64,000 nucleotides of DNA from Mytilus galloprovincialis (taxonomy: Eukaryota > Mollusca > Bivalvia > Mytilida > Mytilidae). The position numbers and the translations under genes are program-made. Below are positions 25,893 through 51,183 of the stretch, one piece after another (positions within the stretch are counted from its first letter, which is position 1; every line of letters begins with the position of its first letter). The notes beneath the pieces are model-generated. The model saw nothing but the letters and a program-made list of their open reading frames with translations, searched no databases and had not been told where the DNA came from. The stretch spans positions 16,970,646 through 17,034,645 of the forward strand of contig NC_134844.1 of assembly GCF_965363235.1 (NCBI RefSeq), given 5' to 3'.

Positions 25893-27185
25893 GTAGCAAC
25901 TTTACCTGACCATATCGGAAAATGGGTATTTAGTCGGATCTTAACACGTACTTGTGATTTGGTTAAAACCGGTTTTGATCAAAATATACGAAGAAATGTC
26001 GAAATGTTCAGGACTTAATTAAATCCGTATTTCGGTAAGATGGTGCAAGCATACGATTTTTAACCGGATTTTTGTGACAAAAATGTCGGTTATTGATTTG
26101 GGGATGTACGGCGGACGGGCGGTCGGGCGGCCGGGCGGTCGGGCGGCCTGGCGGTCGGGCGGGCGGCAATCAAATGTTGTCCGTGCATTTACTCATGAAC
26201 CGTTCAACCAAAGCTTTTAAAATTTTAATATGTTGTTACTGACAACTAAATGAAGGTCAAGTTCAATAATGGCGATTTTGACTTTTACCGTTCAGGAGTT
26301 ATGGTTCTTGAAAGATTGAAAAATGGAGTTTCCAGTCGTGTCCGTGCATTTACGCATGAACTGTTCTACCAAAGCTTCCCAAATTTTATTATGTTGTTAC
26401 TGATGACAAAATGGAGGTCAAGTCCAATAATGACGATTTTGACTTTTACCGTTCAGGAGTTATGGTTCTTGAAAGATTGAAAAATGGAGTTTCCAGTTGT
26501 GTCCGTGCATTTACGCATGAACTGTTCTACCAAAGCTTCCCAAATTTTAATATGTTGTTACTGATGACAAAATAGAGGTCAAGTCCAATAATGACGATTT
26601 TGACTTTTACCGTTCAGGAGTTATGGTTCTTGAAAGATTGAAAAATGGTGTTTCCAGTCGTGTCCGTGCATTTTCTCATGAACCATTCAACCAAAGCTTT
26701 TGAAATTTTTATATGTTGTTACTGATGACAAAATAGAGGTCAAGTTCAATAATGGCGATTTTGACTTTTACCGTTCAGGCGTTATGGTTCTTGAAAGATT
26801 GTAAAATGGCGTTTCCATTCACGTTGTTGCATTTACTCATGAACCATTCAATCTAAGCTTTTCAAATTTTAATATGTTGATACTGATGACAAAATAGAGG
26901 TCAAGTTCAATAATGACGATTTTGACTTTTACCGTTCAGGCGTTATGGTTCTTGAAAGATTGTAAAATGGCGTTTCCATTCACGTTGTTGCATTTACTCA
27001 TGAACCATTCAATCTAAGCTTTTCAAATTTTAATATGTTGATACTGATGACAAAATGGAGGTCAAATTTGATATTGACGATTTTCCCTTTCACCATTCAT
27101 CAGTAATGGTTCTTGTGATATTGCCAGGACACAAATAAATATTAATAAATCCGGTTTGCTGTCGTTGTGACAGCCTCTTGTTATT
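25893..27185 (-). mobile_element. Tandem-repeat-core element (pearl/HINE-like), 161-bp units
   Basis: Landmark GTCCGTGCAT (or its variant) recurs at 26179, 26340, 26501 and 26662, and as GTTGTTGCAT at 26823 and 26984: an exact 161-bp period over about six units. A GC-rich (CGGGCGGT)n microsatellite occupies 26106-26166. The other end has the hairpin GCTGTC/GACAGC (27158-27174) followed by CTCTTGTTA. Read on the minus strand the order is AACAAGAGGCTGTC hairpin, tandem core, microsatellite, 3' flank, the layout of bivalve pearl elements and Helentron-associated elements. No coding capacity. Confidence 0.65.
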
Positions 27186-30870: not shown

Positions 30871-31662
30871 AAACTAGAGGCTCTCAAGAGCCTGTATCGC
30901 TCATTTGACTCTACTTAGGTTTTTGAAATCATATAAAAACAGATAAAATTTGACTACAAAGTAACAACACTTGGTCAGCACTTCATAAGGAAAGGACTGT
31001 TCATGCTATGTTTGATTTCATTCAATTCCTTGGTTCTCTAGAGGACTTCTGTATGCATTTCCCATAGGATCCTATGTTAAACTAAGCCCCCCGCTGGATG
31101 ATGGATCAGCTACAAAGTAACAACACTTGGTCAGCACCTCATAAGGAACATTTTTGCCATGTTTTGGTTTCATTCCATTCAGTGGTTCTCTAGAAGAAGT
31201 CATTTGTATGCATTTCCCATAGGGTCCTGTTAAACAAAGTCCCCCGCTGGCGGCCATCTTGATTGATGGATCGGCTACAAAGTAACAACACATGGTCAGC
31301 ACCTCATAAGGAACATTCATGCCATGTGTGGTTTCATTCCATTCAGTGGTTCTCTAGAAGACGTCATTTGTATGCATTTCCTATAGGGTCCTATGTTAAA
31401 CTAAGTCCCCCGCTGGCGGCCATCTTGGATGATGGATGGACTACAAAGTAACAACACTTGGTCAGCACCTCATAAGGAACATTAATGCCATGTTTGGTTT
31501 CATTCAATTCAGTGGTTCTCTAGTAGAAGTTCAAAATGAAAAAAGTTAACGACGACGACGGACGACGACGACGGACGACAGACGACGACGACGGACGACA
31601 TACGACGGACGCCAAGTAATGCTAAAAGCTCACTTGGCCCTTCGGGCCAGGTGAGCTAAAAA
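30871..31662 (+). mobile_element. Tandem-repeat-core element (pearl/HINE-like), about 165-bp units
   Basis: Begins AACTAGAGGCTCTCAAGAGC with a perfect GGCTCT/AGAGCC hairpin. Core units start with GTAACAACAC at 30961, 31117, 31282 and 31448. A (GACGACG)n microsatellite follows at about 31551-31612. It ends with a strong hairpin, AGCTCACTTGGCCC / GGGCCAGGTGAGCT, and AAAAA. Termini match the element at 36621-43624 almost exactly while the cores differ. Non-coding. Confidence 0.75.
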
Positions 31663-31804
31663 ATCAACAAACGTATACGACTTCATATTCTCTATATGCT
31701 GTCATCCAGCATCAAATGTGGCGAACAGTCATTTAAGATAGTTATTGTTTGATTCAATGTCGTCTGAACTTATAATTAGCATAACATATTCTTTTGAATA
31801 AAAA

Positions 31805-34800
31805 TTACGTACGTTCTACCAAAGCTAGGACTTTACTGTATCCAATTGTATGAATAAATTCTGTGACGTTGTGATGTTGAGCAGCAACAAATAAGTCAAC
31901 AACCAACTGCTTATCCTGCTGATTCATAGTAGTATACAAATGTGTCTGCATAAGGTTATTGACCTGTGTCTGGAGATCGCGTAGCTGAAAATAAAATAAG
32001 ATATGTAGTGTACAAATGTGTCTGCATATGATTATTGACCTGTGTCTGGAGATCGCGTAGCTGAAAATAAAATAAGATATGTAATGTACAAATGTGTCTG
32101 CATAAGATAATTGACCTGTGTCTGGAGATCTCGTAGCTGAAAATAAAATAAGATATGTAGTGTACAAATGTGTCTGCATAAGATTATTGGTTTGTGTCTG
32201 GAGATCTCGTAGCTGAAAATGAAATAAGATATGTAGTGTACAAATGTGTCTGCATAAGGTTATTGACCTGTGTCTGGAGATCTCGTAGCTGAAAATAAAA
32301 TAAGATATGTAGTGTACAAATGTGTCTGCATAAGGTTATTGACCTGTGTCTGGAGATCTCGTAACTGGAAATAAAATAAGATATGTAGTGTACAAATGTG
32401 TCTGCATAAGATTATTGACCTGTGTCTGGAGATCGCGTAGCTGAAAATAAAATAAGATATGTAGTGTACAAATGTGTCTGCATAAGGTTATTGACCTGTG
32501 TCTGGAGATCTCGTAGCTGAAAATAAAATAAGATATGTAGTGTACAAATGTGTCTGCATAAGGTTATTGACCTGTGTCTGGAGATCTCGTAACTTGAAAT
32601 AAAATAAGATATGTAGTGTACAAATGTGTCTGCATAAGATTATTGACCTGTGTCTGGAGATCGCGTAGCTGAAAATAAAATAAGATATGTAGTGTACAAA
32701 TGTGTCTGTATAAGATTATTGACTTGTGTCTGGAGATCTCGTAACTGGAAATAAAATAAGATATGTAGTGTACAAATGTGTCTGCATAAGATTATTGACC
32801 TGTGTCTGGAGATCGCGTAGCTGAAAATAAAATAAGATATGTAGTGTACAAATGTGTCTGCATAAGATAATTGACCTGTGTCTGGAGTTCTTGTAACTGG
32901 AAATAAAATAAGATATGTAGTGTACAAATGTGTCTGCATAAGATTATTGACCTGTGTCTGGAGATCGCGTAGCTGAAAATAAAATAAGATATGCAATGTA
33001 CAAATGTGTCTGCATAAGATAATTGACCTGTGTCTGGAGTTCTTGTAACTGGAAATAAAATAAGATATGTAGTGTACAAATGTGTCTGCATAAGATTATT
33101 GACCTGTGTCTGGAGATCGCGTAGCTGAAAATAAAATAAGATATGCAATGTACAAATGTGTCTGCATAAGATAATTGACCTGTGTATGGAGTTCTCGTAA
33201 CTGGAAATAAAATAAGATATGTAGTGTACAAATGTGTCTGCATAAGATAATTGACTTGTGTCTGGAGTTCTCGTAACTGGAAATAAAATAAGCTATATAT
33301 AGAGAGCAACAAACAGTGTTATTTTGAAAACAAATAGGTAAAATCACCACAAAAATACTGAATTCCGATGAAAATTCAAAACGGAAAGTCCCAATCAAAT
33401 GTAGACATTGGTGGATTGAACCTGTTTTTATAGCAAAAGCACCATGTCAAATTCGAGGTATATTAGAGATTTCCAATTAAATGACATACGTACCTCACTC
33501 GACGTACGCACGTAACGGGACCGGTTATTGCTAACCAACTAATTTTGTTAAATGCGACTCTCAAATTTTAACTAAGTATTCCTTAACTATTAAACCCATT
33601 CATAATTTATTTTTTTAATATCAAGTGTTTCTTAGATGATGAAAAACGAAAGAAATCATGATTTTTATATATCACGTGATTCCTGCGTAATCTTCACTGT
33701 CATAAGACCACGTATAAACGGTATATATACGTATCTTTACCTATCATTCGATTCATAGGAGTTGTCTTTCATGTTTTTGACCATGACTTTGTTTGTCCGA
33801 TATACTTTGCAAAATTTAATGAACCTTTTATCACCGTGTATCATCAGTACACCGGATATAGGTACTAACCAAGCAGGCATGATCGATTTTGACCTTTCAT
33901 GATAACAAAAAACTTTGTTTTGCTTTATCAATATTCAATGTATATTTCTGAACATCTGAAATTCCTGCTCCCAAATAATTTTCGCATCGATTTTTTCCTA
34001 TTCATAAAACAACTTTGATATCTAATAAGAACAATTAACTTGTAAATTTGCAAATAGTTGTGAATGTCAACACCAACTTTCAATTTCGATACAGTTGTTG
34101 AGACATTTACATGAGTTGCAATGAATATAGAATAATATCGGATGAGACGAGTGCCAACTTCTTTTACAAGTATTTGCACATGCTTTTAGTAATCCCTCTT
34201 GTTTTGGGGAAATAATGAGACATTTCTAATCATCAACCTACGACCAAATCATTTCTTAAAACATTATGTTTAGATTGAAGTACACATTGATATTATGTGA
34301 ACAAAAACAAAGATTTTTCGTTACCGTGTAAGATAAAAATCGCTCAGGCCCGCTTGGTTAGTACCTATATCCGCTGTACGATGATACACGGTGATTATTA
34401 TTTAATATTTTTATTGCTTCTGTTTGTCGTTATCAGATTGGTGTCCCTGTTCGTTTATGTAATGTTTTATAATATTTAATTTTCGCGGGTATTTATTATT
34501 AAATATGGTGGTGGTTTTTTTTTATCAATTTCCAAAAAAGTGAACTCAAAGTGTTAATTAGAATGTGTCTGTTAAAGTTGATAACTTGGATTCCATCCTA
34601 CAATATTAAGCATTATTTCAAACGTTCTCCTCTTCTGCAGTTAATCTCCTTAATTTACAATCTCGGAATTTTTTTAACTGGAAAAACGTACGACAACGGG
34701 ATGTTTATATTTAAAAAAATTAAACAGGTCTTGTACTTCTTTAAATTCAATGAGTTGACATACACTTTTCTTTCAAATGAAAGTCAACTAACATTAAAGA

Positions 34801-37800
34801 AAAAGAATATTGTAATTGATAATAATGTGTGTAAATAAGTGTGTACATCAATTCATTATTTATATATAGATTGTAATTTGGAAGGTGTGCTTGATTAGCA
34901 ATAGTTATCAAAGGTACTAGGATTATAATTTAGTACGCCAGACGTGCGTAAAATTTTAAAAAGATGTGCCAAATACGGCTAAGGTAAAAAAGGGACGAAA
35001 GATACCAAAGGGACAGTCAAACTCATAAATCTAAAACAAACTGACAACGACATGGCTAAAAATGAAAAAGACAAACAAACAACAGCACACACGACACAAC
35101 ATAGAAAAATAAAGAATAAACAACACGAACGCCTACAAAAAACTAGGGGTGATCTCAGGTGCTCCGGAAGGGTAAGCAGATCCTGCTCCGCATGCAGCAC
35201 CCGTCGTGTTGCTTATGTGATTACAAATCCGGTAAATAGTCTAATTTGGTAGGTCACATTCATGAAGGGGAAGGGGATTGTAGTTACGACGTAAGGAACA
35301 TATCCGATATCATTTGTGAAACGGTTATTCCATAACGGTCAACCAACTCGTGATGGCGTCCGTAAATTTACGAAGGGATGATTTCAACTTCACCATTTGG
35401 AACTCTTGGTTTAATAGCTTCCATGTGAGCAGCAACCCTCTATCAAGAAAATCATGATAGGAAATGCAAGCACGGGAATATCGTATCAATTGGGAGATAT
35501 ATACCCCGTATGCAGGTGCTGCTGGAATGTTGCTACTTAGAAATGGAAAGTTCACAATTGGAAAGCTGAAATCATCTCTTTTGTCGTAAAGTTTTGATTT
35601 CAACCAACCATCATTGTCAATTTCTAGATGTCAGTCAAGATATGAGGCCGACTTAACTGTATCTGTAGTATCCTTTATCTCTAGCTCGATTGGATAGATG
35701 CGTTCCACATAGTCACCAAATTTTGAATTATTTAGTGAAAGAGTATCATCTATATAGCGAAAAGTAGAGTTAAAGGATATTGCTAACTTCTTATCTTTCT
35801 ACCTAAGAAGTTCCTGCATGAAGTCAGCCTCATAATAATAAAGAAACAAGTCGGCAAGTAGAGGGGGACAGTTTGTTCCCGTTGGAATGCCGACAGTCTG
35901 TTGAAAAATACGTCCTCCGAACGTAACAAATATGTTGTCAATCAAGAAATCAAGCATCTTGATAATATCAGTTATCTAGTTATCTATGCCTGGGATAAGA
36001 AAATCCTTGGTTTTTCGAAAAATGCAGTTTTATACACAGGAAATTTACAACTGATGAATAATAATCTGCATATAAACATTGGTCACTGAGGATAGTAAAC
36101 TATCAATTTATAGTACATATTAATTGTCTTAAATATCCTGTTCCCAAGTATCTCTGGTTAAATGTGGATGAGAATGCCAGTTTACATACTTGTTACATTT
36201 TTGGGACAGTCTTCACGGGAAGTTTGTTTTACTCTTACTTTACCAATAAGAAGTGGATTCTAAAGTTATCACATATTTTAATTGAGTTAGAGATTTTTTT
36301 TAGTTTCAATTTTTGTCTCGCTTGAAGGTTTATATATATAAACGTGACAACTCTGCGACAGATACATGGACAGAATCACCAGTGAAGGTGATACACGACT
36401 TAAAAAAACCTGTTATACACATAATTATATACTGGTACAATGTACATGGGATTGACTTGTAGCAGACTAGTCTCGAATACGGGTTCAATTATTGTGTTGT
36501 ATCCCCTGATCGAATGACTTTAAGCCTTGTAACCTAGCATATGACAATGCGACTCTTAGTGTTGGGCATGTACAAAAAGGTATATGTATTTATCATAATC
36601 ATATCATCATTCTTAATATAAAACTAGAGGCTCTAAAGAGCCTGTGTCGCTCACCTTGGTCAATGTGAATATTAAACAAAGGAAGCAGATGGATTCATGA
36701 CAAAATTGTGTTTTGGTGATGGTGATGTGTTTGTAGATCTTACTTTACTGAACATTCTTGCTGCTTACAATTATCTCTATCTATAATGAACTTGGCCAAG
36801 TAGTTTATGAAAATTGTTAAAAATTGACTATAAAGGACAATAACTCCTTAGGGGGTCAATTGACCATTTCAGTCATGTTGACTTATTTGTAAATCTTACT
36901 TTGCTGTACATTATTGCTGTTTACAGTTTATCTCTATCTATAATAATATTCAAGATTATAACCCAAAACAGTAAAATTTCCTTAAAATTACCAATTTAGG
37001 GGCAGCAACCCAACAACGGGTTGTCCGATTCATCTTAAAATTTCCGGGCAGATAGATCTTGACCTGATAAACAATTTTACCCTTTGTAAGATTTGCTCTT
37101 AATGCTTTGGTTTTTGAGTTATAAACCAAAAACTGCATTTTACCCCTATGTTCTATTTTTAGCCATGGCGGCCATCTTGGTTAGATGGTCGGGTAACCAG
37201 ACACATTTTTTAAACTAGATACCCCAAATAAAGGCAACAGTAGTATACCGCTGTTCAAAACTCATAAATCCATGGACAAAAAACAAAATCGGGGTAACAA
37301 ACTAAAACCGAGGGAAACGCATTAAATATAAGAGGAGAACAACGACACAACACCGAAACGCAACACACACAGAAACGGACCAAGCAATAGACAAAACACC
37401 ACGAGAATAACAAATATAACATCAAAACCAAATACATGAATTTGGGATAGACAAGTACCGTGCCACGTCTTATCTAAAAAATAAGAGAAAACACAAACGA
37501 CTCAACGTTAAAATGCAACACACACACAGAAACGAACAATATTATAACAATGGCCATCTTCCTGACTTGGTACAGGACACTTTTAAAGGGGAATAAAAGT
37601 GGTGGGTTGAACCTGGTTTTATGGCATGCCAAACCTCGCACTTTAATGGCAAAGTTAAATATAACATTGAAATGACAACATAATATTACAGGACTACAAT
37701 ACAAATAAAAAGGAGACCATATTAGACAAAGAAAAGCATGATTAATAGATAACAAAAAGCATCAGGTTTAAAATTCAATACGCCAAAAACGCGTCTAGTC

Positions 37801-40800
37801 CACACAAGACTCAATAGTGACGCCCAGATATAAAAGATCGAAAGTGAAAAAAAGGGTACAAAGTTGTACAGCACTGAAGATCAAAAGTTGAAAAGGTTTT
37901 GCCAAATACGGCATTGTTTGTATGCCCGGGATAAGAACATTCTTATTATATAGAACAATTCATGCTATTGCAAACAGTAAATTTTATCAAATGAATATGA
38001 AAGAGATATACATAATGAAACTAAAGTATTAACTAATTACAGAAAACTAAACCCGAATACATAACGCCCAGATATAAAAGATCGAAATTGAAAAAAGTAC
38101 AAAGTTGTACAGCATTGAAGATCAAAAGTTGAAAAGGTTTTGCCAAATACGGCATTGTTTTTATGCCCGGGATAAGAACACTTTTATATAGAACGATTCA
38201 TGCTACTAGTATTGCAAACAGTAAATTTGAACAAATGAATGTGAAAGATATATTCATAATGAAACTGAAGTATTAACTTATTACAGAAAACTAAACCCGA
38301 ATACATGATGCCAAGTTCAATACAGCATAGACACACCCGAATCAGTCCAGGCGTCAACGCAATTAAAAAAAATGACGTCACATACGATGGCGAAAAGGCA
38401 AACGTTATGCCACATTTGAATTTATGAAATTTAGAAACAGCATGACGTCACACATGAAAAACTATAATTCAAAAGTGAGATAGAATTAGGATTGCTTAAA
38501 GATTATATTAGAACTAAATACTGATAATTTATAAAAACAAAATGCATATTGCAATACTTATTAATAGCAATTAACTGTAATATATATAAGTCCAGTTTGT
38601 TATGAATCCAACTTCAAACGTAATTAATCGTACGAAATTAAATATAATAAACAAAGGCGGTGATTAATTTTTCCATCCGTAACACCTAAATATAATAAAA
38701 AGACGTCAACACATTTGACAAAATGAGAATTACAAATATAACATTAAACATGTAAACTAAATACATGAATTTGGGATAAACAAGTACAGAAACACGTCTT
38801 ATAGTAATACGAATTCACATTCAGCAAAACAGTCACAATCGGGAATAAGTCACGTTTGGTAATTAAAAGATTAGACGACATAATGACAAGCCACAATCTA
38901 CCATGTGGTAAAAATGTCCTTAGCTAGTTTGGTTAAAGAGACATCATATGGGTCCACCAATTCGTGATGGTGTCCATAAAATTTACGGAGTGTCAATTTT
39001 AATCTGTCCTCCTCATAACTTTGTTGGAGCAGTTTCTGCGTAAGGAGCACACTCCTGTATATGAAGTCCGTATAGTGTGAACAAGCACGTGAATAACGTA
39101 TCAATTGTGATATGTAAACACCATACGAAGGGGCAGAGGGTATGTTACTGCTAAGAAATGGGAAATTGATAATTGGGAAGTTGAAATCGTCCCGTTTATC
39201 ATAGATTTTCGTGTGAAGTCGTCCATCTACGTCAATATTGAGGAAAAGATCAAGGTATGAAGCAGTCCTTCTAGTATCAGTAGTATCCTTAATTTCAAGT
39301 TCACTAGGATATATGAGATGTAAGTATTGGCTGAAGTATGGGTTGTTCAATGATAAAACATCATCAATATATCGGAAAGTAAAATTAAAGAATTTCGCAA
39401 GGTGCTTTTTCTTTTTGTCTTTTAGAAGGTTCTGAATAAATTCTGCTTCATACGAATACAAAAACAAATCAGCCAGCAGGGGTGCACAATTAGTACCCAT
39501 TGGAATACCGACTGTCTGTTGAAATATAAATCCTCCAAACTCAACAAATATATTGTCGATCAAAAAGTCCAGCATTTTAATAATATCATCTTCAGTATAT
39601 TTTCTGGAAGATTCAGTGTGATTCTTTACAAAATATGAATTATTGTATCCCAAAACAAGAAATTTGTATCTACGATTCCCATTTTTATAGAAAAAGCTCT
39701 GTTTTATGAGATGGTGAAGTCGATCTTTCAACTGAGCATGGGGAATAGTAGTATATAGCGTAGAAAAATCAAAAGTTTTTATGTTGCTGCAAAATTGCAA
39801 AGATTGTGATCGAAGGTTAAGCAGTAGATCTTTCGAATTTTTGAGAATCCACATCTGGTTAACACCACTGGTAGAATATATCTCCTCACAATATTTTTGC
39901 AGCCCATCTTTAACTGTAGAAAGAATAGTAGTCAATACTTTAGAAAGGTGTTTAGTCGAACATTTTGAAGACCCAGCTATGTATCGTTCTTTATATGGAG
40001 TTTTGTGTAATTTAGGTATCCAGTATAATGAGGGCAAGTTTTCTTCGTTTTCTTTGATGTTGATACCAAAAGAAAGAAGGACAGATTTATGATTTTGTAA
40101 AATTTCATCCTTGGTAAATGATGTTAAAGAATATGTAGGATTACCAGTAGTTTTATCAATTCCAAGCTCTGTAGTGAGACATTGCAAATAATGTTTTTTA
40201 CATATGAAGACGATATTATTGGAGGCTTTATCTGCCGGAACAACGACATATTTGTCATGCAAAGAGGATAAAGCATCCACAACCTCCGGATTCTTGAAAG
40301 GGTTAGAAACTCTAGTACTCATATTACATCGTAGTTTTTGTATGCGCCTCTGAATGCATGATCGAATAGCTTTGATCCATTCAGACAAAGTGTCCAGTTC
40401 GGGTTCGTCTGGTTCGCGCTTTACCCATTTTCTTGCATAGTCCTCAACTGCATCCATCAGTAACTTGAAATTCTTGTTCCAGTTGATGGGCTGGGGGATT
40501 CTATACTTTGGTCCCTTGGCTAGCAACTCTCTTAGTTGTTCATTGGTAACAATACCAAGGTCACCAGTAATAATATGACCAGCTGGACTATAATTGTATT
40601 GAGAAGATGCACATGAGCAATCCGGAGGCTTGGATTTTGTATCTTTGAGGTTAAAAGCCTCTAAAACTCTCTTGTGGTTGAAAATCTTTGATGCAATAGA
40701 CTTGGTGTAAGTATAAGAAATAACAGGTGTAGCTTTATTTTTGAAGTAATCAGGTATAGTTTTTTGTACAGATTTTTGATGGAAAATATTGCCAATATTT

Positions 40801-43800
40801 ATAGCATCTAAACCTTTATTGGCGAATTCTACCTTAAAAAAGTAACGTTTTTCCTCACTATTGGATGTAGTCAATACGGGTTTGAATAGTCTATGGTTAG
40901 CAATGTCCATGATAATTGCAACTAATCTATACAAAACAGAACGAGAATCAGTAACGGAAGTATTTTTGGCATCTTGAAATAGTAAAGAAAGTTTTGACAA
41001 TGGAATGGAGTATAATTTAGTCCTAATATGATGAATTCCTAAAGGTTTTTGAACAGACGATAATAGACTATCAATCGTCACGGTGTGTACAGCAGGTGGT
41101 ATATATTTTCTGTGACCATGACTTCTATTTCGTCGAGCAGAAGTATTAAATAATTTTAATGTATTGACAGTACTACACCTGGGACTAGATAAAATACCTA
41201 CACCATCAATTTTGTCATTGCATCCATAGGGAATGGCTGTTCCCAACTCTCTAATCCAAAAGTCTTCTCTTTGTAAACGATATGGTGTACTCAATATGGG
41301 GTCATTTGTAGGATGATATATTTTCTCTATAATCCGGACTTTCATTGAAACAATAGAATGGTCAGGCTGATTAAAATGTTTATAGAGAAATTTGTTGTTA
41401 TTAGGATCATTAACATTTGACCGATGATCATTCATCCTAAAATTGAGTCTTTGTCGAGTTTCCCCGACGTAGATCAATCCACAAAGAGTACATTCAATAC
41501 CGTAAACAATATTGGAGGCAGTGCAATTCAAATCCTCATGGCTATGTGTATTGTAATTTTTGGTGGTTAAATTACTTTGAAAGTGGGTATCAGTTATTAG
41601 TATATCACAGGTTTTACAATTTTTACGGTTACATTTGGAAATAGAGCAATATTGATGGTTGTCATTGAAATCTAAAATATCTGAAAGTTGAACAGTACAC
41701 GGCCGAATATATTCAAACTTGTCTGAATTTTTATAGTACAATGCGGATTCAGAAGACTGCACATGTGTCATTTTCATAACATCATTTAAGATGATCCTGG
41801 GGACACCTGATAAAATCGGTGTTGTTGTGTCCTTGACAACAGCCGATTGACACCTTTTTATCCTGGGCGTCGTGTCATCCAGTATAATATTATTTGTTCT
41901 ACTAGTTTTCATGCTGTTAGGCTACCGGACTACCGGACTTTAGGCTAAAGATGTTTGTGGCCAAGTTTGGATTATTTTGGCCCAGTAGTTTCAGAGGAGA
42001 AGATTTTTCTAAAAGATTACTAAGATTTACGAAAAATGGTTAAAAATTGACTATAAAGGGCAATAACTCCTAAAGGGGTCAACTGACCATTTCGGTCAGT
42101 TTGACTTATTTGTAAATCTTACTTTGCTGAACATTATTGCTGTTTACAGTTTATCTCTATCTATAATAATATTAAAGATAATAATAACAAAAAACAGTAA
42201 AATTTCCTTTAAATTACCAATTTATGGGCAGCAACCCAACAACAGGTTGTCCGATTCATCTGAAACTTTCAGGTCAGATAGACCTTGACCTGATAAACAA
42301 TAAACCTGTGTCAGATTTGCTCTAAATGCTTTGGTTTTTGAGTTATAAACCAAAAACTGCATTTTACCCCTATGTTCTATTTTTAGCCATGGCGGCCATC
42401 TTGGTTGGATGGCCGGGTCACCAGACACATTTTTTAAACTAAATACCCCAAAGATGATTGTGGCCAAGTTTGGATTAATTTGGCCCAGTAGTTTCAGAGC
42501 GGAAGATTTTTGTAAAAGATTACTAAGATTTACGAAAAATGGTTAAACATTGACTATAAAGGGCAATAACTCCTAAAGGGGTCAATTGACCATTTCGGTC
42601 ATGTTGACTTATTTGTAAATCTTACTTTGCTGAACATTATTGCTGTTTACAGTTTATCTCTATCTATAATAATATTCAAGATAATAACCAAAAACAGTAA
42701 AATTTCCTTAAAATTACCAATTTAGGGGCAACAACCCAACAACGGGTTGTCCGATTCATCTGAAAATTTCAAGGAAGATAGAACTTGACCTGATAAACAA
42801 ATATACCCTGTGTCAGATTTGCTGTTAATGCTTTGGTTTTTGAGTCATAAACCAAAAACTGCATTTTACCCCTATGTTCTATTTTTAGCCATGGCGGCCA
42901 TCTTGGTTGGAAGGCCAAGTCACCGGACACAATTTTTAAACTAGATACCCCAAAGATGATTGTGGCCAAGTTTGGATTAATTTGGCCCAGTAGTTTCAGA
43001 GAGAAAAATTTTTGTAAAAGATTACTAAGATTTACGAAACATGGGTTAAAAATTGACGATAAAGGGCAATAACTCCTAAAGGGGTCAACTGACCTTTTCG
43101 GTCATGTTTGACTTATTTGTAAATCTTACTTTGCTGAACATTATTGCTGTTTACAGTTTATCTCTATCTATAATAATGTTCAAGATAATAACCAAAAACA
43201 GCAAAATTTCCTTAAAATTACCAATTCAGGGGCAGCAACCCAACAACAGGTTCTCCGATTCATCTGATAATTTCAGGGCAGATAGATCTTACCTGATAAA
43301 TAATTTTACCCCATGTCAGATTTGCTCTAAATGCTTTGGTTTTTGAGTTATAAGCCAAAAACTGCATTTTACCCCTATGTTCTATTTTTAGACGTGGCGG
43401 CCATCTTGGTTTATTGCCCGGGTCACCGGATACATTTTTTAAACTAAATACCCCAATGATGATTGTGGCCAAGTTTGGTGTAATTTGGCCGAGTAGTTTC
43501 AGAGGAGAAGATTTTTGTAAAAGTTAACGACGCAGGACGACGACGGACGACGACGGACGACGGACGCCGGACGCAAAGTGATGGGAAAAGCTCACTTGGC
43601 CCTTCGGGCCAGGTGAGCTAAAAATTGTATGTAATATTTGTCGCTGGATATAAAACAAACATCAGTATCAACATCATCATAAGTACTATAGCTTGATGCT
43701 AATTCCCCGTCGTAAGTCCGTGCATTTTATAATGCTTGAGGCTTCTTCGTAAGTATTATAACTTGAGGCTTAATTCTTATATGATATTTTTGCCAATTTA

Positions 43801-46800
43801 TGTCAAGAACTTATTTTACGCATGCATCTCTGTGCTACATAACTAGTTTTTATAAATGTCCAAGTTAAAGGCAATAGAGATCATAGAAGTATGTTTATCG
43901 AATGATCATGTCACAATTAAAACAGTAAGAAAGGGATTGACGTGAAATGAAGTATAAGAAATCTATAGACAGTCTAGAAAAGCAAGACATTTGTCATGTC
44001 AAAAGAACAGAGTGTGTGTAGGACCATTAGTTGTATAGCAGAGTATATGTAGTTTCCGTGTGTCCATTAGATTACACATCTGTATCAAATTTCTGTGTTA
44101 AGTGAGCTATTAAATTACGGGAAAATCCAATTCAGTATACATGTAGTCTCAAACTTTTACATTTCATGCGAAATGTCTAATGTTCAGACAGTGTTGTTTT
44201 TAAACAGTAGTCATCAAAGTCAAACGACAATCTTTTATTTTTTTTTATTTGTTCAATACAATTTGTGAATATGGCTGGATCCAAGATATTTGAAAGAGGG
44301 TGTAGTTCCCGATATTGGACTTATGTTGACGAGCGGAGCAATGCCACAAAATAGTTTGGACGATTTCTAGTATACGCTAAAAATGTGTATAGATATTGTG
44401 GAAAACATGAGATTTTCAAAATTATTTAGCGATCGAAAAAAGGGGGTACGCCCTCTACCCCTGTATCCTCGAATGCACGTTTAGGTATACAAGGACAAAC
44501 ACCTGATAATACTTCCATGGTATAGGTATTAAAAGACGAAAAAGTACTTTTGATAAATATATCAATGATATGAATTTCCGCCCACATCAAATTATCTTCA
44601 ATTAAATTATAGAAAAATACTATTAAAAAAATAGTCGAGTACACCTTTCACATTCGGGTGGTTGGAATCTACTGTAAACGTTAAAACTTGTGAAAACAAC
44701 ACAAAAGACAACCTTCTCGCTTCGGAATTCATTATTTTAATATATTATTTGCTAAATTTCGTCTTTGTAGTTTTTAAAATTCATAATTTGAAAAGAACTA
44801 AAATATGGGTCAAGTAAAATGACAAGTAATGATGGGTGTATTTGATTTCAAGTTGCTAACTTACTTATTCCATTATAATATTTGTATCAATAAAATCTTT
44901 CAAAATTTAATGACAAAATATTCAAATATTAAAAAAATTATTTAGGGTTAAATTTTACATAAAGTATATTCCAGCTAAAAAGGCGTGTTCAAAGAGTAAA
45001 ACATGCATGTAGTGTATTCTTTCCTTCGTCATACTACAATGCAAATACGTTGAGTTAGGTCGGTTATGTCGAGTAAAGTCGTTTTATTGAAAATCTCTAA
45101 TAAAAAGACATAGTTTACAAAGTTATGCTCTTAAAATAAACTTATCATAGATACCAGTATTGATATTTTTACGCCAGACATTACAGTATATGAAGAAGTT
45201 GACATTGATTCCCACACACCGTGTCATTCGAAGGGGTACATGTATATCATTCCTTCTCCGCATAGGACATCCGTATTTGTTTGCTAACAAGTTACTATTT
45301 AATAAGTTAAAAGAGTTGATTTATATTAAAAATCTAGTCGTGAACGTATAGAGACGACCGGTATGTGACTTAGAAAAAGTAAAGAACTGTACATGGCGTT
45401 CATTATCACTGAACTAGTATATATTTGTTTAGGGCCCAGCTGAAGGACGCTTCCAGGTGAGAGAATTTCTCGTTGCATTGAAGACCTGTTGGTGACCTTC
45501 TGCTGTTGTCTGCTCTATGGTCGGGTTGTTGTCTCTTTGACACATTCCCCATTTCCATTCTCAATTTTATGTTTTGCTTGCAACAACAAAATGCATTGAC
45601 CCTATCAATGTTAGCTGTCGACAGACACTAGGCGCTCAAACCTTGCTTGTGTATCTATTATGTTGATGGCGTTATCGGCATCTTACATTTATCGTGCTTG
45701 TAAAAACAATCTTATATATATACAATTATAATCTGTCGTGGGCCTTTAGTTGGTGATGTAAGTAATCTCTACATACACATATCAATTGATACAATAAACG
45801 TGTGTTTGCATAAAAATGTGAAGGAGTTTGTTCACATCTTGGAAATTATATTTAAGATTAGTAATATAACGAGAACAACTATTAGATTGTTTTGTCGTAT
45901 ATATAGTGTTGTCAATGCTTATTCTCCTTACATAACTATTAAATTTAACAATAGGGTTGGAAGAAACCAAGGATGCAATAAAAAGTTGGGAAATATAGAC
46001 GATTCAGATAACACAGATGAAATGCAAAACAAAAAAAAAAAACGGCCGAATTAAGTACAAAGTGACGTATTTACCTTTATAACAACACTGTCATCTGAAT
46101 GATGAACTGCGGTCACTGTCTCCTGATTTAATTCCTAGAATAAAATAAAAATGTCAAAATTATGTGTATTTACTGTCCACTGACTCGGTGAAGATTATAG
46201 GTACTGTGATACCTCATGAATATCTTTATAATGCCATCCTAAAAGTTGAAAGAGAACGATTACAGAGGAACGTTCAAATTCACAAGTCAAAAACAAGCTG
46301 TCAACGTCATGGTTAAATTTGAGAAGACCAACAGACAAACAAAAGTGCACAAACAAAACATAGAATGTAGAGTGTGCAACACGAACTCCACCAAAACAAT
46401 GGGAGAGTTGTTTATTCAAATCCTGAAGAATAATCAGATAATGTTCTACATGTCACACGTACACCAGTTGTGTTGCTGATGAAAGGTTAAACATGGCAAT
46501 TAGTCCAATGATAATTCCGGGGAATTGTTTTTAAAAAGTTTTATTTCTACACCCGTTCATGAAGCATGATCGGTGTCGAAAACTTGCACATAATACTTTT
46601 AACGCCGATTCAATTTCCTGTCAAATTTCTGTTCATTAAATGGTCAAATCATAAAAACACTGAGGTTTTTCAACTACGGGTAGTCATTGTCCTATCCGTA
46701 ATTTGCACCACTGTTTGGAATTGTTGGTTATTATTGCTTTGTCATATTTTTTTAATTCAAGCTCCTTTGATAAGTTTTTCTTAGATTAACCGCATGTCTG

Positions 46801-47590
46801 GAAAACCTAATTGATATTGAATGCATGGTGTCTTGAAAAGTACCTCTGATTAACGTTAATATAGCGGTTACTTATTCGTAATGTTAACTGAGATTTGTGT
46901 AATGACTTTCAAATGGAATAAACCCTTGAAAAAATATGAGTCATAAGGACTTTTCATGATCTACATTCATCTAACGCGCTCAAATCTTAACCTAGTGAAT
47001 AAACAAATAGCCAAATTCGTGAAGATTAAATTGCATGAAGGAATTTGAATTTTAGTTTCTTAATAATGTTTTAATTAAATAACGGGGAATCTTAAACATG
47101 TTGCTTTTTCACTAGAGTAATTTTCAGCAGGAAAGCGTAAACCTCAACACTTGAAAGCCAAAGATGCATCAATACATTGCACCTTTATGAACATATAACC
47201 AACTGGTTTATGCCCATGTAAAATTTTAGAAGGAAAGGAAGAAGTAACACAAACCAACTGCTGACTAAGAGCAAGAAAGTTCCTTTGTTATTCATGAAAA
47301 TGACAGTATATTATGGTGTTACCACTCTAACAGTTAACGACTGTATCTGATTATTGATAGTCTCAAAAACTTCCTTCTTGGTGTTCATGCCAACAAGTAT
47401 ATTATAATTAGAAAGTTTTAACGTGACATTAGGATAGTATACAATCGTATATTCTAGCATGAAAATCAGCTTAAACGTCAGCAGTGAATAGTATTAAGAA
47501 AAAATGTTATGCATGTATTAATAACTATATTAACCTGTATCAGATAATGTTCCAAAAGTTTTGCCTCCCCTTGATCTATCTTCGTTACAT
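31805..47590 (-). CDS. Small helical protein gene, three candidate exons (5' end not found)
   Basis: Candidate exons on the minus strand: 47535-47590 (VTKIDQGEAKLLEHYLIQ), 46075-46134 (ELNQETVTAVHHSDDSVVIK) and 31805-31984 (LRDLQTQVNNLMQTHLYTT onward to a TAA). All have AG/GT borders and phases agree: 1 to 0, then 0 to 0, then 0. The last exon is homologous to the C-terminal half of the 86-residue gene at 48596-51183: both have HxY near the start, a Leu/Val-rich helix with AA, and G[YF] before a final helix. The paralogue is secreted, so this one probably is too, but no signal-peptide exon entering 47590 was found. The 14-kb last intron contains the naiad and an 18-copy array of the terminal acceptor. 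Exon 3 is firmer than exons 1 and 2. Confidence 0.5.
31930..33300 (-). repeat. 18 tandem 76-bp units carrying acceptor plus heptad-coding segment
   Basis: TACAAATGTG recurs at 31935, 32011, 32087 and onward to 33227 with an exact 76-bp spacing, 18 units. On the minus strand each unit holds a pyrimidine tract with AG (TTATTTTATTTTCAG), then CTACGAGATCTCCAGACACA, coding LRDLQTQ. The unit next to the gene is the true start of the last exon. Differences between units in the heptad are mostly silent or conservative: CTA/TTA, CGC/CGA, Asp/Glu, one Arg-to-Gln class. Units 12-17 alternate as A-B pairs (152-bp higher order). No unit has a stop in any of the three minus-strand frames, so long ORFs through it are a by-product. 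Confidence 0.85.
33330..33470 (+). repeat. Family A fragment with internal deletion
   Basis: AAAATCACCACAAAAATACTG, AAAACGGAAAGTCCC, then directly GGTGGATTGAACCTGTTTTT, lacking the middle of the family. Confidence 0.55.
33832..34396. mobile_element. MITE-like element with about 95-bp terminal inverted repeats
   Basis: TCACCGTGTATCATCAGTAC at the left end and TACGATGATACACGGTGA at the right end are inverted. The match continues inward through GGTTAGTACCTATATCCG on the right arm to an AACAAAG block. Total about 565 bp, with a non-coding middle. ORFs over the arms are incidental. No clear target duplication. Confidence 0.55.
34905..34987 (-). repeat. Retrozyme fragment, left part of an interrupted copy
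   Basis: GTTATCAAAGGTACTAGG, TACGCCAGACGTGCG and GCCAAATACGGCTAAGG keep the retrozyme order, but the hammerhead core between GTGCG and the next block is deleted. It resumes at 35976 after the PLE. Confidence 0.65.
34988..35975 (-). mobile_element. Penelope-like element, 5'-truncated, inserted in a retrozyme
   Basis: Closely similar to the 3' kilobase of the copy at 23583: tail with GCCATGG-like ACGACATGGCTAAAAATG, then RT C-terminus (KLYDKRDDFSFPIVNFPFLS at 35325-35603), the YIDD region near 35750 and GTNCPPLLADLF-like coding up to LDFLIDNIF. Several frame interruptions. The 5' end stops at the same RT region as CTTGATAATATCAG at 24553. Retrozyme sequence lies on both sides. Confidence 0.8.
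35976..36070 (-). repeat. Retrozyme fragment, right part of the interrupted copy
   Basis: TTATCTATGCCTGGGATAAG, AAAATCCTTGG and TTTTTCGAAAAATG continue where 34987 left off in other retrozyme copies (compare 15139-15180). Confidence 0.65.
36075..36620. other. Intronic, no feature recognised
   Basis: AT-rich; no repeat or exon identified. Confidence 0.35.
37555..37700 (-). repeat. Family-A-like segment inside the naiad 3' UTR
   Basis: CCTGACTTGGTACAGGACAC and GGTGGGTTGAACCTGGTTTT match free-standing family A copies. The same segment occurs in the second naiad (63910-64000), so it is part of the element. Confidence 0.6.
37775..38310 (-). repeat. Retrozyme-like segment and 244-bp tandem duplication in the naiad 3' UTR
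   Basis: CGCCCAGATATAAAAGATCG occurs at about 37823 and 38066, with TTTTGCCAAATACGGCATTG and ATGCCCGGGATAAGAACA in both units: two tandem copies of about 244 bp. The outer copy is preceded by AATACGCCAAAAACGCGTCT and AGACTCAATAGTGACGCC, the layout of the hammerhead repeats (stem I TGACGC/ACGCCA kept, core altered). The second naiad has one unit. Confidence 0.7.
38898..41912 (-). CDS. Naiad-type PLE protein: GIY-YIG endonuclease, CxC domain, reverse transcriptase
   Basis: 1004 residues, no stop. A Cys cluster (CSISKCNRKNCKTC, 89-102) precedes an N-terminal GIY-YIG nuclease at about 134-236: VYGIEC (136-141), LIYVGET (147-152), RMNDHRS, and a CCHH set formed by Cys141, Cys144, His163 and His179, with DFWIRELGTAIPYG near its end. 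A linker holds CSC (432-434) and SPAGHIITGDLG (442-453), the CxC domain of N-terminal-endonuclease PLEs. RT follows: VVVPADKASNNIVFICK (557-572), WIPKLHKTPYKERYIAGSS (631-649), FDFSTLYTTIP (714-724), QTVGIPMGTNCAPLLADLF (799-817), catalytic YIDD (848-851) and IYDKRDDFNF (903-912). Endonuclease before RT is the reverse of canonical PLEs. The key cysteines are ordinary Cys codons, so this is not one of the selenocysteine-bearing naiads. All visible catalytic motifs are intact. Confidence 0.93.
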   Translation of the reverse strand: MKTSRTNNIILDDTTPRIKRCQSAVVKDTTTPILSGVPRIILNDVMKMTHVQSSESALYYKNSDKFEYIRPCTVQLSDILDFNDNHQYCSISKCNRKNCKTCDILITDTHFQSNLTTKNYNTHSHEDLNCTASNIVYGIECTLCGLIYVGETRQRLNFRMNDHRSNVNDPNNNKFLYKHFNQPDHSIVSMKVRIIEKIYHPTNDPILSTPYRLQREDFWIRELGTAIPYGCNDKIDGVGILSSPRCSTVNTLKLFNTSARRNRSHGHRKYIPPAVHTVTIDSLLSSVQKPLGIHHIRTKLYSIPLSKLSLLFQDAKNTSVTDSRSVLYRLVAIIMDIANHRLFKPVLTTSNSEEKRYFFKVEFANKGLDAINIGNIFHQKSVQKTIPDYFKNKATPVISYTYTKSIASKIFNHKRVLEAFNLKDTKSKPPDCSCASSQYNYSPAGHIITGDLGIVTNEQLRELLAKGPKYRIPQPINWNKNFKLLMDAVEDYARKWVKREPDEPELDTLSEWIKAIRSCIQRRIQKLRCNMSTRVSNPFKNPEVVDALSSLHDKYVVVPADKASNNIVFICKKHYLQCLTTELGIDKTTGNPTYSLTSFTKDEILQNHKSVLLSFGINIKENEENLPSLYWIPKLHKTPYKERYIAGSSKCSTKHLSKVLTTILSTVKDGLQKYCEEIYSTSGVNQMWILKNSKDLLLNLRSQSLQFCSNIKTFDFSTLYTTIPHAQLKDRLHHLIKQSFFYKNGNRRYKFLVLGYNNSYFVKNHTESSRKYTEDDIIKMLDFLIDNIFVEFGGFIFQQTVGIPMGTNCAPLLADLFLYSYEAEFIQNLLKDKKKKHLAKFFNFTFRYIDDVLSLNNPYFSQYLHLIYPSELEIKDTTDTRRTASYLDLFLNIDVDGRLHTKIYDKRDDFNFPIINFPFLSSNIPSAPSYGVYISQLIRYSRACSHYTDFIYRSVLLTQKLLQQSYEEDRLKLTLRKFYGHHHELVDPYDVSLTKLAKDIFTTW
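43626..45140. other. Intronic or intergenic, no feature recognised
   Basis: AT-rich; the minus-strand ORF at 44426 shows no family feature. Confidence 0.35.
45142..45180 (-). repeat. Retrozyme fragment ending near the cleavage position
   Basis: CATAGATACCAGTATTG and TACGCCAGAC match the hammerhead repeats and stop within a few bases of the predicted cleavage site; the ribozyme core is absent. Confidence 0.5.
45420..45575 (-). repeat. Dispersed repeat family B copy
   Basis: Reverse complement of 10335-10480: AGCTGAAGGACGCTTCCAGG, TTGCATTGAAGACC, TCTATGGTCGGGTTGTTGTC and CACATTCCCCATTTCCATTC. Confidence 0.65.
46240..46510 (-). mobile_element. Old PLE 3'-tail fragment (tail type 1)
   Basis: AAACAAGCTGTCAACGTCATGG, ACATAGAATGTAG, CACGAACTCCACCAAAAC and CCAGTTGTGTTGC follow the order of the tail at 23640-23820, at lower identity than the other fragments. 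Confidence 0.55.
46515..47534. other. Intron of the minus-strand gene, no feature
   Basis: No repeat or exon recognised between the two candidate exons at 46075 and 47535. Confidence 0.35.
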
Positions 47591-48595: not shown

Positions 48596-51183
48596 TTACA
48601 TACGATCAAGAAACTGAGCAATTCGAGCGAATCCAACTCTGTCAATTAAATGTGTGACTTGGTCAACCTCTGCTGCAGCCAATAACTCTACCAGTAGCAC
48701 CCTCTCTGATGACGGCAGGGAATTGTAGATATGAGATTTGTGCATTACCTCTAAAATATTAAGTAGATGATCGGTCGAGACTGACACTGTAGTTTTCGGC
48801 GTTTGTGCAAAAGTGCACATTGCGCATGTCAAAACAATTAGTGCTGTTATCCTGGAAAATAAGCATGAATCGTGATTTCATTCAAGTTTCTAAACGACAA
48901 TAACTGTTTAATATCGGTTTATTCCAAATTCGAGTAAAATTGTCTTATAAAACTTTAATGTGATGGACGAAATATGAATTTCCAGATAAAAAAACCCCAA
49001 TTGAATGGGTATCTATATTTTGACAAGTTATTTACAATTAGAATGCACTCCTCATGAAAAATTTAAAAAAAGTTCAGATGATCAACACTACAATATATCC
49101 TTCTAACAAAGCAGTTGCTAAAAAATGGAAATTCTCTACAGAACAATGCTGTTATAATTTAACAGAAGAGAAATAAGGTTTATATATTTGTTTTTATATG
49201 TATAAGATTAACATATCAAGCAATAACTGAAAGTTTTAAATCATTAGAACAAAAGACAAAACAGTCAGGTATTTTTTTGTTAAACAAAAGATAGTAGGAA
49301 CAAGTAGTTTTGACCATGCTTAGCAGTCATACCACATCTTCTTTTTTATATTAGCTATATCCTAAAAATTTCATTGAGAAAAATAGAATAGAGAATTGGA
49401 ACGGGGATCGTGTCTATTAGACAATGACCGGATCAAAAAGAACATTACAATGTAAACTCATTGGTCCCATTGGATATCAACTACTTACTTGGCGATGAGC
49501 GAAATCTCTATAGGGAACAAAACAGTTATTTTGAAAAATATCTAAAATATTAGTATTTCCAACAATTTTTTGACACTCTAATTGCTGTTATTTGCACTAT
49601 TTTCGTAGACCTTATTTGAAAAGAAAATAATAAGGTTTTTGATTGTACCAAGTGAAATAGTAAGTAGAATCGACAGTTAAGAAGTGGAAACCAGTCTTGA
49701 AGTCGAAATAAATCTTTATTTGAAAATGCATAGTTAAAACAGCTCAATCACTGAACCATTTTGAATATTTTTATGTTAAATGTGTTTTCTTTGCCTCTAT
49801 AAAAAGATAATGGTAAACAATTATATGCAATACAGATAATGGAAAAGGTGAACAGGAAAGTAGTGATGGAACAGGTCAACGGGAAAGTATTAACCAATCA
49901 AAATACGTCAAATGAAAAATAACTCATGTGTTACCTTCACCTGACTGTTAAATGCTTTTCAAATTGGGTAACATATGAAATATCAATTTGTTCATACAAA
50001 CTATTTGTTATCTTTTCCCACAATTTGTGTTTTATATTATTTTTATATCCCGTTCTGTTTGTTTGCTGCTCGTGTTGATGTCAAAGTGTTTTTTAAAGTT
50101 TAACTTCTAACTTCTGGGTTCATGCATAATGTAAAAAATGTTGTTTAGTAATATTTATCGTTTGTACTGATATCATTGCCCCCTACATATCTTGTATTAT
50201 CCTGGACTATTTTTACATAAGTTTTTTTGACCTAATTTAGATGTACTTCTATTTATATGATAAGGTTATCTCCTTGATCTCAATCAGAATGTCACTTTCA
50301 ATTATATTGGCCAATCTTTAACACACTTCGTCAAGGTGAAATTTAATTTGGAAACAAGGAATGTGTCAAAGAAACTCGGCCAAAGGGCAGATAATGGCCT
50401 AAGGCCACCAATGGGTCTTCAACACATCGAAAAACAAAATCATGCAACAGTAGGCGGGATTCAGCAAGCCCAGAAGCAATCATGTATAATGTGAAATTAG
50501 ATGTCATTCTACACTAAAAAAGAAAATTTACGAAAATTTACGAAACATACATGACTTAATGTTGAAGCCGTATAGGTTGTTAATGTCTCTGTCATTTGGT
50601 CTCTTGTAAGAGTGACCTCATCTGCAATCATATCATATCATCTTTTTTTGTTATATAACAAACGCTATAGGTTCCTGACTTGGGACAGACACAAATATGT
50701 AGCGATGTTTAAACTGTTTTGTGAGATCTCAAGTCTTCACTAGCCAAAATGGAATACTCCACCGCTTATCAATACGCTCAATACAAGTCAGTATTAATGA
50801 AGTCCGAGTCCGAAGTTAGAAAAGGTAAAGAAAAAAACTGATCAAAATGACAATAATCAATGTAAATGAACAAAGGACTTCTAACAGTTACTGTCATGCT
50901 ATCTCCAGACTTCAATTAAATTGCTTTAAAGATTATGTATTCATCATAAGACAACCAACCACAATTCCTCCTGTTAGAGGTTTGAAAAATATAATAATAA
51001 AATATAGCCCGTATCATGCCAACAACTGGTTTTACATTAAATGTTTAAATGTGCAGTCTTTTTGAGTAACGACATATAGTCATAAATATTTCAATTTATT
51101 TCTCGTTTCATACTATTTTGTCAAATATTAGAGTATGTGACATTTTATATATGAGATAATAGAAGATAGAATACTTACTTCAT
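48596..51183 (-). CDS. Secreted 86-residue helical protein, two coding exons
   Basis: Exon 1 contributes ATGAA (51183-51179, donor AA|GTAAGT). Exon 2 is 48851-48596 (acceptor TTTTCCAG|G). The joined start MKITALIVLTCAMCTFAQ is a typical signal peptide, probably cut after AQ. The mature part, about 68 residues, is cysteine-free and looks all-helical: HLLNILEVMHKSHIYNSL, ERVLLVELLAAAEVDQVTHL, and GFARIAQFLDRM at the end. It matches the last exon of the gene at 31805 in pattern, so the two form a local paralogue family on the same strand. A 5' UTR exon may lie upstream: TTCTATCAG precedes the start exon and another donor (TTTG|GTAAGT) lies near 51313. AATAAA is found about 180 nt past the stop. 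Function unknown. Confidence 0.65.
48855..50330. other. Intron of the secreted-protein gene, no feature
   Basis: Only a short family C scrap (GCAGTCATACCACATCTTC near 49322) and a family-B-like GAGAATTGGAACGGGG patch near 49392 were seen. Confidence 0.4.
50335..50740 (+). repeat. Family B copy interrupted by a family C fragment
   Basis: Family B runs 50335-50520 (AGGCCACCAATGGGTCTTCA, GTGAAATTAGATGTCATTCT) and resumes at about 50665 (AGGTTCCTGACTTGGGACAG). Between them, 50560-50660 carries the family C end (GTCATTTGGTCTCTTGTAAG). Confidence 0.55.

Follow-up and report, generated by a model that had tools for sequence, protein, structure and literature searches.

A tandemly duplicated intron/terminal-exon boundary in Mytilus galloprovincialis, probably a minisatellite carried as intron

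Why does one gene end carry a long series of near-identical 3' splice sites, and what would they do to its transcript? The series lies in a 64,000-nucleotide stretch of the Mytilus galloprovincialis genome (contig NC_134844.1, positions 16,970,646 to 17,034,645; hereafter the window). A first-pass annotation had described it as 76-bp repeats on the minus strand, each with a splice acceptor and a 21-nt segment coding for a heptad, and had offered two explanations: a splicing-tunable coiled coil or a selfish expansion of a splice site. In this study, we determined the make-up of the repeat unit, its relation to the adjoining exon, and the splicing signals and reading frames that it carries.

Make-up and growth of the array

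Tandem Repeats Finder placed the array at 31929-33296 (minus strand), with 18.0 copies of a 76-bp unit, 93% matches, and 0% indels, which confirmed the earlier count of 18 copies at exact 76-bp spacing. The units lie head to tail with high identity, and their length falls within the range of about 10-100 bp, as in a minisatellite or VNTR. The repeats had been called exact. This holds for the period, 76 bp throughout, and not for the identity of the copies: units 3, 5, 7, 9, and 12 share one sequence (5 of 18), and units 11 and 14 share another (2 of 18).

Read on the minus strand, every unit joins the final 20 nt of an intron to the 56 nt with which a terminal exon begins. The 20 nt are pyrimidine-rich and end in AG; they are followed by 21 nt encoding L[RQ][DE]L[QH]TQ and then by 35 nt. 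The tract, the AG, and the heptad-coding segment were seen in all 18 units, as had been described. In the last unit, the 35-nt part is continued coding sequence (VNNLMQTHLYTT), and unit 18 passes unbroken into MNQQDKQLVVDLFVAAQHHNVTEFIHTIGYSKVLALVERT and then a stop. The main features are as follows.

33276 - 76k (k = 0..17), minus strand: first exon bases of the units, which are the 18 acceptor positions
33221..33296, minus strand: unit 1, the gene-5' edge, adjoined by unique intron sequence unlike the repeat
32157..32232, minus strand: unit 15, acceptor 32212, with ACC instead of GTC after the heptad
31805..31984, minus strand: coding part of the terminal exon, from the unit 18 acceptor to TAA; 59 aa (LRDLQTQVNNLMQTHLYTTMNQQ...VERT), a predicted five-helix domain

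Since every unit joins an intron end to an exon start, the array is a tandemly duplicated intron/exon boundary. The 76-bp unit is derived from the boundary between the intron and the terminal exon. This origin is supported by the uniform 20 + 56 make-up and by the two edges, unit 1 running into non-repeat sequence and unit 18 into coding sequence. The make-up of the unit agrees with the earlier view, in which it was a 3' splice site followed by the beginning of a terminal exon on the minus strand.

A search pattern for acceptor plus heptad, written from the array itself, found 18 matches in the window at up to 3 mismatches, all of them inside the array, and a mean of 0 in 100 shuffles. When the array was used as a query against the whole genome (1.38 Gb, 331 contigs), a single locus was matched in a search that skips very common words. 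Rfam gave 0 matches over 31500-33600.

The mean distance between units was 3.25 at lag 2 versus 5.0 at lag 1, the pattern that copying of units two at a time would produce. The five identical units and the lag-2 similarity are the signs of block exchange between units that are looked for in minisatellites.

The terminal exon and its surroundings

Upstream exons were sought between 33300 and 48600, and three candidates passed the chosen cut-offs. They are listed here with a neighbouring open frame.

46075..46134, minus strand: 60-nt candidate for an upstream internal exon, with frame 0 as its only open frame (ELNQETVTAVHHSDDSVVIK); best of the 3
47535..47590, minus strand: candidate upstream internal exon, 56 nt, with two open frames, one of which (VTKIDQGEAKLLEHYLIQ) ends in phase 0
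46422-46213, minus strand: third exon candidate
48596..48877, minus strand: the neighbouring open frame; by eye, its start is hydrophobic and signal-like

The terminal exon starts in phase 0, with which the candidates at 46134-46075 and 47590-47535 would be compatible. A first exon of the gene was searched for and not found.

The terminal exon aligned without gaps to the C-terminal 50 aa of the 48596-48877 frame, with 12 of 50 residues identical. The alignment scored 78, whereas 3000 shuffles reached 44 at most, a comparison made somewhat favourable by choosing the segment after aligning; genome searches alone gave E values of 0.24 and 0.67 for the pair. The similarity reaches into the repeated part (NLMQTHLY), so the terminal exon predates the array. 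For the same reason, the array was rejected as the source of the exon. From the two-sequence alignment, AlphaFold2 predicted five helices (best model with mean pLDDT 88.3 and pTM 0.67; the other four 75.5-79.3), with the heptad in the first helix of the domain (residues 2-12). In Pfam, the 48596-48877 frame also has a sub-threshold match to the N-terminal domain of baculovirus PEP (Baculo_PEP_N; 20.8 bits against a cut-off of 23.9, E 5.7e-4).

Relatives of the terminal exon were also sought. Pfam gave no match on the exon, the PDB gave 0 matches to the domain at E <= 10 by sequence or by fold, and a viral fold library gave 25 matches at E <= 10 and 0 at E <= 0.001. No close second copy of the exon appeared in the genome search. 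A family search of the genome, from whose output the neighbouring frame itself was absent, returned one weak match elsewhere (E 0.98). Weak matches on C14, C5, C2, and C8 were considered as paralogues and taken as chance, a judgement in which translation covered only part of them; the three matches on C14 contain a stop and nearly duplicate one another.

The nearest candidate exon lies about 14 kb from the terminal exon, with retroelement sequence between. Together with the missing first exon, the lack of a close second copy, and the lack of Pfam, PDB-sequence, and PDB-fold matches, this distance would suit a gene that is dispensable or dying, in which the array is tolerated and no useful protein is made any more. 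We consider this unlikely, because the reading frame of the terminal exon is intact as far as its stop, the best model of the domain has a mean pLDDT of 88, and the 46075-46134 candidate combines strong splice signals with a matching phase.

Further features were observed in the window. A 1007-codon open frame at 38898-41921 (minus strand) has a GIY-YIG match at residues 138-226 (22.5 bits, cut-off 22.6), and this endonuclease precedes a weak reverse transcriptase match at 753-856, below cut-off. With its endonuclease first, the frame resembles permuted Penelope-like elements, a type named Naiad. At both 31549-31660 and 43527-43617, an ACGACGG-type microsatellite is paired with a palindrome-like stretch (AGCTCACTTGGCCCTTCGGGCCAGGTGAGCT), and the pairing has the same orientation at both sites; the two sites are probably parts of one repeat family. 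A further tandem array, with 5.8 copies of 161 bp and 92% matches, lies at 26178-27115. Three diverged repeat copies about 500 bp apart at 42222-43523 (minus strand) contain open frames reading ...PRWPPWLKIEHRGKMQFLVYNSKTKA..., and a fourth copy is at 36956-37180.

Splice signals, reading frames, and the fate of the units

To score the splice sites, position models were built from 62 donors and 59 acceptors at the ends of 66 myosin and clathrin exon matches in the same genome. These model sites are themselves inferred, with 3.4 (donor) and 2.2 (acceptor) candidates per end. A second fit used the myosin exons alone (53 acceptors, 56 donors). The unit acceptors scored above the median of the 59 inferred acceptors in 17 of 18 cases, the exception being unit 10 (AAG), and all 18 beat the median of 53 in the myosin-only fit. 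Among the 2985 AG sites on the minus strand of the window, the array holds 16 of the top 18 with either fit. The two outside the array include 46134, the acceptor of the best upstream exon candidate.

The unit length of 76 is not a multiple of three, and every third acceptor shares the frame of the last one. Assuming an upstream exon that ends in phase 0, as the candidates suggest, we read onward from each acceptor as exon. An early stop was reached from 16 of the 18 acceptors (13 after 34 codons, 3 after 110), and only units 15 (135 aa) and 18 (59 aa) led to the natural stop. All units had been claimed to be free of stops in every frame. This was wrong, as 14 of the 18 units have one frame with a stop: in 13 it is a TAA within the exon-derived part, and in unit 1 a TAG on the intron side. 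A T that removes the stop is carried by 5 of the 18 units.

We weighed what the units would do in the transcript. Most probably, the array is a minisatellite that arose at the intron/terminal-exon boundary and is carried as intron, with the last acceptor leading to protein and most of the others acting as decoys. A boundary segment, made of ~20 nt from the intron end and ~56 nt from the beginning of the terminal exon, is present in 18 tandem copies, and the identical alternate units (3, 5, 7, and 9) look as if copied in blocks of units. The array would now be part of the intron. Use of the gene-proximal acceptor at 31984 would give the protein; most of the other 17 acceptors, if used, would give a frameshift and an early stop, and hence would be decoys. 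Their number may lower productive splicing, in which case copy number could tune output. Against the decoy reading, nearly all of the acceptors are still strong, though most should harm if used. We infer from the sequence that the array behaves as intron and that the last acceptor makes the protein. No selected function is needed to explain the array. It has the look of common repeat expansion at an uncommon site, not of tiny exons built for a purpose. Of the two explanations first offered, the expansion of a splice site stands as far as the sequence goes; its selfishness does not, as nothing shows it.

The upstream units could instead be products of iterated intron gain: in-frame 21-nt microexons separated by 55-nt introns, by which a Leu-heptad helix is lengthened variably. 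Such exons would preserve the frame, LxxLxxx in tandem would place Leu at a and d, and the segment lies in the first predicted helix (residues 2-12). With GT in 16 of the 17 upstream units and AG in all, the duplicated segment supplies both ends of a potential intron, and one intron gained through duplication of a 3' splice site and exon start has been described in potato (PMC4974935). The would-be donor CAGGTCAAT, found in 14 of the 17 upstream units, is inside the range of the inferred donors, of which 10 of 62 (9 of 56 in the myosin-only fit) score as low or lower. However, C at +3 occurs in just 1 of the 62 inferred donors. Donor CAAGTCAAT (units 1 and 8; CAA/GTCAAT in unit 1) scores just below all 62, and the GT is absent after the heptad in unit 15, so that 3 of the 17 upstream units, unit 1 included, have no GT or a donor below every inferred one. 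The donor-like sequence is identical to the GTC AAT codons of the terminal exon, and none of the units has a better version of it. The first-pass annotation had CAG/GTC following the heptad in most units and one unit lacking GT. The former was found in 15 of the 18 units, terminal exon included, the rest reading CAA/GTC (two) and CAA/ACC (one); the latter is the unit with ACC at acceptor 32212. Intron length also speaks against microexons: adjacent myosin exon matches lay at least 259 nt apart in 29 gaps (median 1147) versus 55 nt for the would-be introns, in a small sample from one gene family beside which shorter introns may well occur.

Variation among the units bears on the same alternative. 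The first-pass annotation had described changes inside the heptad as mostly silent or conservative, and would have counted equal substitution patterns inside and outside the segment as a refutation. On small counts, the 21-nt segment was the most diverse part, with a diversity among the 18 units of 0.095, compared with 0.042 for the intron part (20 nt) and 0.055 for the remaining 35 nt (0.097, 0.043, and 0.052, respectively, when unit 18 was left out). In a sliding comparison of 76 frames of 21 nt, 66 were less diverse than the heptad segment and 42 had fewer variable sites. In the 56 exon nt, 5 of 15 changes were silent in the coding frame versus 21-26% expected (P 0.20-0.36; small counts, low power), and 4 of 14 and 5 of 14 were silent when read in the other two frames. 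Extra constraint on the 21-nt segment was thus not detected by diversity and silent-change counts in 18 units, at low power. Among older changes (minor count at least 3), 4 of 7 were silent in the coding frame versus 2 of 6 in each other frame. Units 1 and 18 differ at 7 positions in the exon part, 4 of them silent, 2 in one Asn/Tyr codon, and 1 Asp/Glu. The older changes and the differences between these two units lean weakly to past coding constraint and are too few to decide. The tendency of older changes to be silent is all that favours microexons beyond coherence, and it is weak.

Taken with the donors and the intron length, the undetected constraint makes microexons improbable. Even less probable is that up to 14 introns were gained by repeated boundary duplication, with splicing and copy number setting the length of the Leu-heptad helix. 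The splicing-tunable coiled coil is likewise unsupported, given no detected constraint on the 21 nt, weak or absent donors in 3 of 17 units, and 55-nt introns versus a shortest gap of 259. Least credible is an in-frame 76-aa extension formed by units 15-17 from acceptor 32212, the only upstream acceptor open to the natural stop and that of the sole unit without GT, since with one acceptor in three in frame and 5 of 18 units carrying the stop-removing T such a case arises easily by chance, and the extension would be read mostly in frames foreign to the exon.

Comparison with known systems

Ordinary minisatellites show an exact period, high identity, and identical blocks of units. The Mytilus array has all three; it differs from them in that its unit is the intron/exon boundary of a gene.

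The human ABCA7 intron-18 VNTR has, according to the cited passages, a 25-bp unit that includes the donor of exon 18. Retention of one unit gives a frameshift and a premature stop, and longer arrays accompany more exon 19 skipping, with unit retention unchanged with length (PMC5954066). As in ABCA7, the tandem repeat studied here contains the real splice site of the adjoining exon, an acceptor in 18 of 18 units. Its 76-bp unit holds the acceptor and 56 nt of coding sequence, whereas those passages name no exon coding sequence in the 25-bp donor unit. Splicing was measured for ABCA7; for the array, we infer it.

In the potato RdRp gene, according to the cited passages, duplication of the 3' splice site and exon start created a single new intron; its donor is GTAAG, and 106 RNA-Seq reads were reported (PMC4974935). 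The duplicated piece is in both cases the 3' end of an intron plus the 5' part of the next exon, with the 3' signals inherited and the donor taken from the exon part. Potato has one duplication and GTAAG, whereas the array has 17 extra copies, the weak GTCAAT, and 55-nt would-be introns, and is known from sequence alone.

The nearest analogue of the microexon idea, by virtue of very short coding exons, is found in the Schistosoma micro-exon genes, described in the cited part of the source as coding for secreted proteins with exons of 3-81 bp and long introns of up to 5 kbp, the proteins having been verified (PMC10526429). Unlike these long-intron genes with verified proteins, the array has near-identical units and would-be introns of 55 nt.

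Among the literature matches listed, which covered titles and the starts of abstracts and few subscription journals, none described an acceptor and coding exon repeated in tandem. The locus would offer a natural experiment in which the splicing machinery chooses among 18 near-identical acceptors 76 nt apart, few of them giving protein, and the array would test repeated boundary duplication as a route to serial intron gain. By the comparisons above, it combines features of the ABCA7 VNTR and of the potato RdRp duplication, the nearest known cases.
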